DNA from: Bacteroidota bacterium
Lineage (GTDB): Bacteria > Bacteroidota > Bacteroidia > Palsa-948
Assembly: GCA_016213435.1 (NCBI GenBank)
Contig: JACRAL010000066.1
Coordinates: 1 to 41,710, forward strand
Direction of reading: 5' to 3'
Length of the DNA stretch: 41,710 nt
Within the stretch, counting starts at the first letter, position 1, and every line of letters begins with the position of its first letter. The notes under the pieces were generated by a model. That model was not told where the DNA came from. It ran no database searches and saw only the letters and a list, made by a program, of their open reading frames with translations. Below are positions 15,256-16,995 of this stretch, piece by piece. Made by a program: the position numbers and the translations under genes.

Positions 15256-16194
15256 ATGAAAGTAACAGTTGTAGGCGCAGGAAACGTAGGTGCAACTTGC
15301 GCTGATGTTATCGCACAAAGAGATTATGCCAACGAAGTTTGGCTTTTAGACATCAAGCCGAATTTTGCCGAAGGCAAAGCTCTCGACATCTGGCAAGCTG
15401 CTCCCATTCATCTCTATGATTCAAGAGTGAAAGGAAGCACAAACGATTATACAAAAACCGCAAACTCGGATATTGTGGTAATCACTTCGGGACTGCCGCG
15501 CAAACCCGGCATGAGCCGCGATGATCTTATTTCTACCAATGCAGGGATTGTAAAAGGTGTTACTGAAAACATCATCAAACATTCCCCAAATGCCATCATC
15601 ATCATTGTTTCCAATCCGCTGGATGTGATGACCTATTGCGCCTACCTCACTGCAAAAAAACCTTCTTCAAAAGTTTTCGGAATGGCGGGCATACTTGATA
15701 CCGCACGTTACCGCGCTTTCCTTGCTGAAGAATTAAATTGCTCACCAAAAGATATTCAGGCGGTGCTGATGGGCGGACATGGAGACACAATGGTTCCGCT
15801 TCCTCGTTATACCACTGTTGCCGGAATTCCAGTTACTGAACTTATCGCGAAAGATAAATTGGATGCAATTATTGACCGCACTAAAAAAGGCGGAGGAGAG
15901 ATTGTAAATCTACTTGGAACTTCGGCATGGTATGCTCCGGGTGCTGCTGCTGCTCAAATGGTGGAAGCCATTGCGCTTGATCAGAAAAGAATATTCCCTG
16001 TCTGCGCATTGCTGAACGGTGAATATGGAATGAAAGATATTTACCTTGGAGTGCCTGTAAAACTTGGCAAGAACGGAATTGAACAGATCATCGAACTTAA
16101 ACTGAATGCCGAGGAGAAAAAATCTCTGGATGCTTCGGCAAAAGCGGTGAAGGAAGTGATGAGTGTGCTGGATAAGATGCAGGTGGTGGCGTAA
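15256..16194 (+). CDS. mdh: Malate dehydrogenase (NAD-dependent, LDH-like type)
   Basis: The enzyme interconverts malate and oxaloacetate in the citric acid cycle. The 312-residue protein is full length for the LDH-like group. The NAD-binding GAGNVG is at residues 7-12. The substrate-binding loop is PRKPGMSRDD near 80-90, SNPLDVMTY near 118 follows, and the catalytic His lies in GGHGDTMVP near 175. Arg in the active-site loop and the PRK sequence fit malate rather than lactate specificity. It is a single-gene unit with an intrinsic terminator directly after it. The frame continues open past the stop into the retropepsin-like ORF, which is probably coincidence or hints at a lost start codon in that ORF. 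Confidence 0.97.
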   Translation: MKVTVVGAGNVGATCADVIAQRDYANEVWLLDIKPNFAEGKALDIWQAAPIHLYDSRVKGSTNDYTKTANSDIVVITSGLPRKPGMSRDDLISTNAGIVKGVTENIIKHSPNAIIIIVSNPLDVMTYCAYLTAKKPSSKVFGMAGILDTARYRAFLAEELNCSPKDIQAVLMGGHGDTMVPLPRYTTVAGIPVTELIAKDKLDAIIDRTKKGGGEIVNLLGTSAWYAPGAAAAQMVEAIALDQKRIFPVCALLNGEYGMKDIYLGVPVKLGKNGIEQIIELKLNAEEKKSLDASAKAVKEVMSVLDKMQVVA

Positions 16195-16206
16195 TCATAC
16201 CAATTT

Positions 16207-16240
16207 AAAATCCCCTTCCGAAAACGGGGAGGGGATTTTT
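16207..16240 (+). terminator. mdh intrinsic terminator
   Basis: A GC-rich stem (16207-16220 with 16225-16239, one extra base in the right arm, AAAA loop) is followed by TTTTT, starting 13 bases after the mdh stop. Confidence 0.85.
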
Positions 16241-16338
16241 ATTTTCCAATAACAATAAAAATTCCGATAAAGATTCTAAAACTTGATGACGGCTTCCATC
16301 TTCTTATAAATATTCGCATTAACGGAAAGCCGGCAAGG

Positions 16339-16668
16339 ATGCTAATTGATACTGGTGCTTCGAAAACAGTATTTGACAAGAAACGGATCAGTAACTTTTT
16401 AAAAGAAGAAAAGTTTGAAACGCACGATAAGCTATCTACCGGGCTTGAAACAAGCAATATGAAAAGTCATCTTGTTGTGATCAAGAAAATATCTATCGGA
16501 ACACTTGAGATCAAAAACTATAAGTCTGTTGTGATTGATATTTCTCATATGAATGCAGCTTACTCTCACATGAAACAGAAGCCAATAGAGGGTGTTCTTG
16601 GATCTGATATTCTTAAACAACACAAAGCAGTAGTGGATTACGGAAAGAAGACTTTGAGATTGCATTAA
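16339..16668 (+). CDS. Retropepsin-like aspartic protease, start codon uncertain
   Basis: The product contains the retropepsin-like catalytic motif DTGASKTVFD, with the DTG at residues 4-6 from the first ATG, and the second conserved segment IEGVLGSDILKQHKAVVDY near the C-terminus. It is a single-domain soluble protein, probably active as a dimer. The only ATG leaves almost nothing before DTG, although the fold needs about 25 residues there. The same frame is open upstream from 16195 and encodes plausible sequence (KILKLDDGFHLLINIRING, about 16267-16323). The true start may therefore be a rare ATA or ATT codon near 16249-16261, or the start codon has been lost. It follows the mdh terminator and has no recognisable promoter. 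Confidence 0.7.
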   Translation: MLIDTGASKTVFDKKRISNFLKEEKFETHDKLSTGLETSNMKSHLVVIKKISIGTLEIKNYKSVVIDISHMNAAYSHMKQKPIEGVLGSDILKQHKAVVDYGKKTLRLH

Positions 16669-16785
16669 GGTCACACACCTAACATCATGCTTTTTATAGA
16701 ACTACGAAAAACCAATTATCTTGGCATCTTTTTTGTTTCACATTCGCGCGGTATAAAAACTAAATCAAACTCAAAAACCAACACA

Positions 16786-16995
16786 ATGAAAAAAGTAATG
16801 TTAACTGTAGCTGCAGCAGTATTAATGTCAGCACTTTCTTTCGCACAAGATGCTGCAAAACCAGCACAAGAAAAAAAAGAAGCTCCTAAGAAAGACGAGA
16901 AAAAAGCTGACGCAAAAGATGCGAAAAAAGCTGAAAAAAAGGACGAAAAGAAAGCTGAAAAGAAAGACGAGAAAAAACATGAGCAGCCTAAATAA
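16786..16995 (+). CDS. Small secreted Lys/Glu/Ala-rich protein
   Basis: The 69-residue precursor has a clear signal peptide (MKKVMLTVAAAVLMSALSFAQ). The mature part of 48 residues is almost only Lys, Glu, Asp and Ala, including two direct copies of an 8-residue unit (KKAEKKDE). The start at 16786 was chosen for the signal peptide; the longer frame from 16687 is not supported. No family is recognised and it is too simple for homology. A highly charged periplasmic or surface peptide is the most that can be said. It has its own terminator and is convergent with the M1 peptidase gene. Confidence 0.75.
   Translation: MKKVMLTVAAAVLMSALSFAQDAAKPAQEKKEAPKKDEKKADAKDAKKAEKKDEKKAEKKDEKKHEQPK

Follow-up and report, generated by a model that had tools for sequence, protein, structure and literature searches.

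Where does translation of a small retropepsin-like gene begin when the conserved part of its protein is preceded by no canonical start codon? The question is raised by a frame in the window (the whole stretch of 41,710 nucleotides analysed here), which is open over 16195-16665, ends with a stop codon at 16666-16668, and is the same as that of the upstream mdh gene (15256-16194), being open from the mdh stop onward. A codon scan of the window found no in-frame ATG, GTG or TTG between the mdh stop and 16339, and the frame encodes KILKLDDGFHLLINIRING ahead of the ATG at that position. A sequence-only reading of this DNA had already pointed to this startless extension in the frame of mdh, and both of these observations hold. 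It had further claimed that the retropepsin fold extends upstream of the ATG, and had left a choice between a rare ATA or ATT start and a lost start codon in a decaying gene, with readthrough from mdh considered unlikely.

As homology to the orthologues starts at about 16249, the coding part runs from about that position and not from 16195. We delimit the retropepsin-like coding sequence, counted from the ancestral start position, as 16249-16668 on the plus strand (139 codons and the stop), using PF13650, an AlphaFold2 model and a 28-sequence alignment, A1, which comprises the window and 27 of the 29 other loci recovered in a search of 60 genomes, with the distant L031 and L032 omitted. The 139-residue protein matches PF13650 with an E-value of 5.9e-14 and 53.0 bits (cut-off 24.3), and falls below the cut-off for the TIGR02281 clan_AA_DTGA subfamily (38.6 vs 57.95 bits). 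The catalytic motif D-T-G-A-S (residues 34-38; 16348-16362, plus strand) is placed by A1, across which D34, G36, A37 and S38 are invariant and T35 nearly so. The protein shares with the Asp_protease_2 families this DTGA motif, the retropepsin fold (predicted here) and Pfam scores above the cut-offs; it differs from them in its unusual start codon, and as a protease it is known here from its sequence and a model. The proteins of PF13650, PF13975 and PF00077 (retropepsin-like and Asp_protease_2) belong to clan AA of MEROPS. A literature search on retropepsin in a bacterial and Bacteroidetes context found no paper. The gene was matched in 32 of the 60 whole genomes searched, the other 28 either lacking it or having a copy that escaped recognition, and is present in every one of the 7 genomes of the genus, among them the source genome of the window; it is a conserved small Bacteroidota gene and a new representative of a known family. 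Downstream of it lies a short Lys/Ala/Glu-rich ORF (16687-16995) without a credible Pfam match, an inner ATG of which gives a signal-peptide-like start, MKKVMLTVAAAVLMSALSFAQ.

The AlphaFold2 model of residues 1-139 has a mean pLDDT of 90.0 and a pTM of 0.84, with values of 95, 92, 98 and 95 for the first four ten-residue blocks, and predicts strands at residues 3-6, 8-11, 16-24 and 27-33. The 30 residues ahead of Met31 thus form predicted strands, so that in the model the fold begins upstream of ATG16339. Its closest solved folds, in tied rows, are the Ddi1 protease domain 7d66 (Z 12.4, rmsd 2.2, 106 aligned residues), the Ddi1 retroviral-protease-like domain 4rgh (Z 12.2, rmsd 2.5, 111 aligned) and the Rickettsia conorii retropepsin-like protease 5c9b (Z 11.9, rmsd 2.6, 115 aligned), the best matches among the compared chains being Ddi1, Rickettsia and retroviral proteases. 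The alignments with 7d66 and 5c9b extend along the length of the model. The Ddi1 and Rickettsia structures share 20-21% identity with the protein; moreover, the whole ORF here is one protease domain, whereas the Ddi1 entries are domains of larger proteins and 5c9b is the Rickettsia enzyme. Residues 1-99 of HIV-1 protease align with model residues 5-131, and a start at 16249, 16255 or 16261 would therefore keep the fold almost whole. Translation from ATG16339, the first canonical start in the frame, would instead yield a 109-residue protein deprived of predicted strands 3-6, 8-11 and 16-24 and of most of 27-33. A protein begun there falls from 53.0 to 37.5 bits against PF13650, and drops below the cut-offs of PF13975, PF00077 and PF09668, that is, three of its four Pfam matches.

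For the start codons themselves we compared 100 distinct loci (L003-L117, duplicates removed), the window included, to which a contig scan contributed the best 80 of 568 relatives; all counts over these loci given below share this composition. Every one of the 99 other loci has a canonical start 31 codons or more ahead of the catalytic aspartate (95 ATG, 2 GTG and 2 TTG, in this set with the best 80 of 568 relatives), and in 97 of the 99 the distance from the chosen start to the aspartate is 32-38 codons; of the 100 loci, that of the window alone has no canonical upstream start. At the position of the DTG-proximal ATG (16339-16341, plus strand; Met31, within the predicted strand 27-33), an ATG is found in 20 of the 100 loci, again including the best 80 of 568, and other, mostly hydrophobic, residues occupy it elsewhere. 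This codon is hence an internal one and not a conserved start. Taking the alignment, the Pfam scores and the structure model together we rejected initiation at ATG16339, which we regard as very improbable. The same three lines of evidence agree with the earlier claim that the fold reaches upstream of this ATG, and orthologues beginning at the DTG-proximal ATG, the observation set against that claim, did not turn up, all 99 beginning upstream.

Comparison with the sister species (G001), whose protein is 87% identical to that of the window, locates the altered codon. The ATG that the sister carries within TTTTTATTTTCCAATG is ATA at 16249-16251 (plus strand) in the window: the sister DNA reads GGGAGGGGATTTTTATTTTCCAATG, and the window is identical to it through CCA and then has ATA, with the flanks of the start codon otherwise matching. 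The two codons after the start also differ from the sister by private changes, at residues that are variable across the family. According to the alignments the codon is ATG in the sister and all six congeners, the ATG in 6/6 other congeners being two codons upstream of the aligned reference position. A near-cognate start shared by relatives was found neither in these six (all ATG) nor in the 99 other loci (all ATG, GTG or TTG, the best 80 of 568 relatives included). These comparisons indicate that a one-base change, ATG to ATA at 16249-16251, is confined to the lineage of this genome. The alternative of a rare ATA or ATT start or a lost start codon drawn by the sequence-only reading accordingly still stands, sharpened to these three nucleotides.

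The frame shared with mdh allows, in principle, a fusion of malate dehydrogenase and retropepsin by readthrough of the mdh stop. The mdh gene (15256-16194, plus strand) codes for a 312-residue malate dehydrogenase (Ldh_1_N, E 3.1e-41; Ldh_1_C, E 3.8e-34), of which 305 residues are identical in the sister, and lies directly upstream of the protease on the same strand in 60 of the 100 loci, spanning many Bacteroidota lineages (best 80 of 568 relatives included). Among the 20 of these mdh-linked loci that are in frame, 4 are open all the way from mdh, which speaks for readthrough. However, over the 60 loci, the window among them and the best 80 of 568 again included, the start is in frame 0 relative to the mdh stop at 20 loci, in frame 1 at 19 and in frame 2 at 21, and this even spread leaves the common frame without information; the sharing of a frame by mdh and the retropepsin is a coincidence. 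The start of the sister, 53 nucleotides past the mdh stop, is moreover out of frame with mdh, and an intrinsic terminator intervenes between the two genes. We rejected readthrough on the frame statistics and find it hardly credible, in line with the low opinion of it held earlier.

That terminator, which had also been claimed from the sequence, is a hairpin at 16207-16239 (plus strand) with a 13-bp stem and a 7-nt loop in the RNA fold; behind it a T-rich run reaches about 16245. The 106-nt stretch containing it folds at -22.3 kcal/mol (z -1.95; 7 of 200 shuffles fold as well or better), and the hairpin and T run of the sister align at the same place. The hairpin pattern occurs at one place only in the genome, and the terminator stretch has an 84% match on contig 154. 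An Rfam match to L10_leader (20.1 bits against the 44 required) was taken as chance. A simple terminator search recovered a hairpin and T run between mdh and the protease in 39 of the 60 loci (best 80 of 568 relatives included), compared with 35 of 600 shuffles. The hairpin ends at most 27 nt ahead of the start codon in 35 of these 39; L031 and L032 are omitted from the terminator and frame counts. For control tandem gene pairs of this genome and the sister with gaps of 40-200 nt, terminators were found in 48 of 382, of which 10 end within 27 nt, a share that becomes 10 of 18 when the gaps are limited to 110 nt, so the closeness of terminator and start is partly due to the short gap. The mdh terminator is a conserved neighbour of the protease gene, not peculiar to this genome. 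Separately, in 19 of the 40 loci without an upstream mdh (best 80 of 568 relatives included), the upstream gene ends in ...PNF and by eye resembles a LOG/lysine-decarboxylase-like protein; at L096 (2279-3417), the one such locus tested against Pfam, it matches PF03641 with E 3.1e-32. In 9 of these 19, within the same set, there is an overlap between its stop and the start of the protease gene, an arrangement suggestive of translational coupling.

Has the gene decayed after the change of its start codon? No in-frame stop or frameshift is present in the retropepsin-like frame, and comparison with the sister gives dN 0.071, dS 1.50 (near saturation) and omega 0.047. Residues 2-30 show 14 synonymous and 4 nonsynonymous differences, so the segment ahead of Met31 shows purifying selection; the locus thus combines the lack of a canonical codon at the ancestral start position with an ORF under selection. 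Polarising the residue changes with five congeners assigned 10 derived changes to the window branch (the start codon and residues 2, 3, 45, 67, 85, 98, 101, 114 and 129) and 5 to that of the sister, with 4 further changes ambiguous. None of the 10 falls in residues 4-30, where about 30 would be expected had the segment been neutral over the branch (total dS 1.0; P 5.7e-14). To judge from these patterns, decay is not visible, and this part of the earlier reading is not supported.

These data bear on the possibility that the start codon was lost very recently, and that the allele of the sampled strain, though null or greatly weakened, is still too young to have decayed. Such a loss would fit the privacy of the altered start codon to this genome among the 100 loci (best 80 of 568 relatives included) and the 9 window-derived changes, leaving out the start codon, against 5 in the sister. 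One of the 9 is Gly67 to Glu, at 16447-16449 (plus strand), which gives STGLET for the STGLGT of homologues: glycine occupies this position in 96 of 98 aligned sequences (best 80 of 568 included) and the glutamate is private to the window. In the flap region this change may be harmful or harmless. A further alignment, A3, was built from the window together with 56 of the 80 contig-scan loci (best 80 of 568 relatives). Yet the excess of 9 over 5 is not significant (P 0.42), nor does it become so when all four ambiguous changes are assigned to the window (13 vs 5, P 0.10), and the frame is without a stop or frameshift. A simple Poisson bound, which depends on its assumptions, limits any neutral phase to about 3-10% of the branch; hence, if the gene is dead, its inactivation falls in about the final 3-10% of the branch that separates it from the sister species, a period that the data allow but that is a small slice of the whole. 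We consider this recent loss unlikely, though far from negligible. The intact frame and the short neutral time permitted mean that the gene is functional, or died very recently, or that the base is wrong.

The last of these would be a sequencing, assembly or strain-mixing error in the draft genome, the true codon being ATG. A single base explains the finding, the assembly is a 216-contig draft, and the species is known here from one genome. We therefore bring in a screen of about 800 kb of this genome (G000, window included) against 1.43 Mb of the sister, which yielded 106 orthologous pairs, 104 of them testable, with about 35,000 aligned codons. In these 104 pairs, 13 rows were flagged because the aligned residues began ahead of the first canonical start that this genome offers, and on inspection two of the 13, infC and the retropepsin, leave a conserved N-terminus without a canonical start. 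Most of the other 11 are conserved leaders before a start common to both genomes; one matches part of a longer protein of the sister and was judged by eye to be a transposase remnant, another is antisense to a 716-codon frame, and three (L179, L251 and L133:642-851), being short frames with low scores, are hard to judge. One early 3' end was flagged, within a short low-scoring frame. No broken conserved gene was seen among the 104 pairs, and the assembly is thus not full of errors, such errors being uncommon, while a single wrong base could still occur. Against an error there is also the private change of the next two codons relative to the sister, albeit at residues that vary in the family. 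An error strikes us as distinctly unlikely.

With only infC and the retropepsin startless in 104 pairs, a genome-wide recoding of AUA as a start was rejected. The infC frame (L133:865-1470, minus strand; TIGR00168, E 2.9e-52) has IF3_N at residues 39-107 and its first canonical codon at residue 62, inside that domain. It opens AAA GCC ATC GCA in this genome and AAA GTC ATC GCA in the sister, both startless, and from these sequences its start is probably ATC, common to the sister species. infC is a classical gene with a non-canonical start, ATT in E. coli and ATC in Streptomyces (PMC5472188). The retropepsin differs from it in that infC lacks a start in both genomes, whereas the loss in the retropepsin is private to this one.

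We tentatively favour, at a little under an even chance, a reading in which a full-length or near-full-length protein would still be made at a low rate from the near-cognate cluster AUA16249/AUA16255/AUU16261. The ancestral ATG at 16249-16251 has become ATA in the lineage of this genome alone and the remaining frame is intact; initiation at these three codons within an unstructured leader would result in weak production. The RNA from the terminator hairpin to about 16284, the start region included, is predicted to be unpaired. Shine-Dalgarno motifs are missing in Bacteroidota. In Flavobacterium, adenines at -3, -6, -12 and -13 favour initiation without a Shine-Dalgarno sequence (PMC6847099). 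By their adenine positions ATA at 16255-16257 and ATT at 16261-16263 (both plus strand) are near-cognate candidates: AUA16255 has A at -3 and -6 and AUU16261 has A at all four positions, while AUA16249 has C at -3 and T at -6 and no adenine at any of the four. An A at -3 is found in 30 of 98 loci (best 80 of 568 relatives included), and is hence no rule in this retropepsin family.

Several observations weaken near-cognate initiation, namely the private nature of the change, the glutamate at the near-invariant Gly67, and the C and T at -3 and -6 of ATA16249. In addition, of 61,358 ancestral AUG starts 363 changed to GUG, 113 to UUG, 2 to CUG and 1 to AUU, AUA being unmentioned in the available text of that study (PMC5622118). 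AUG-to-AUA switches must be rare, which counts against the near-cognate reading, though such switches would probably often be masked by annotation. In S. aureus, infC, ccpN and citZ have AUA starts with about 10% of the reporter expression of AUG, and these depend on extended Shine-Dalgarno motifs (PMC13009471). The retropepsin resembles the non-AUG starts sensed by IF3 (AUU of E. coli infC, GTC of Streptomyces sigR, and AUA of S. aureus infC, ccpN and citZ) in having a putative start codon other than ATG, GTG or TTG before an intact ORF under selection. It differs from them in that its start is not common to relatives and is without help from a Shine-Dalgarno sequence; further, the starts of E. 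coli, Streptomyces and S. aureus were tested experimentally (PMC5472188, PMC13009471), whereas that of the retropepsin is proposed here from sequence. That initiation fidelity has lately begun to control the retropepsin, whose level would rise when IF3 is down as with the genome's own infC, is a doubtful extension of the near-cognate proposal.

As bacterial AUA starts are already documented for S. aureus infC, ccpN and citZ (PMC13009471), the start described here would be an unproven case of a known rarity. It is also an annotation trap, because a gene caller restricted to ATG, GTG and TTG starts would report a 109-residue fragment without the first protease strands. If initiation at AUA or AUU is not real, the locus would present an unusually fresh start-loss. 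If it is real, the locus would be a natural test of non-AUG start choice in a phylum without Shine-Dalgarno sequences, and near-cognate starts could work in Bacteroidota by context and lack of structure alone.
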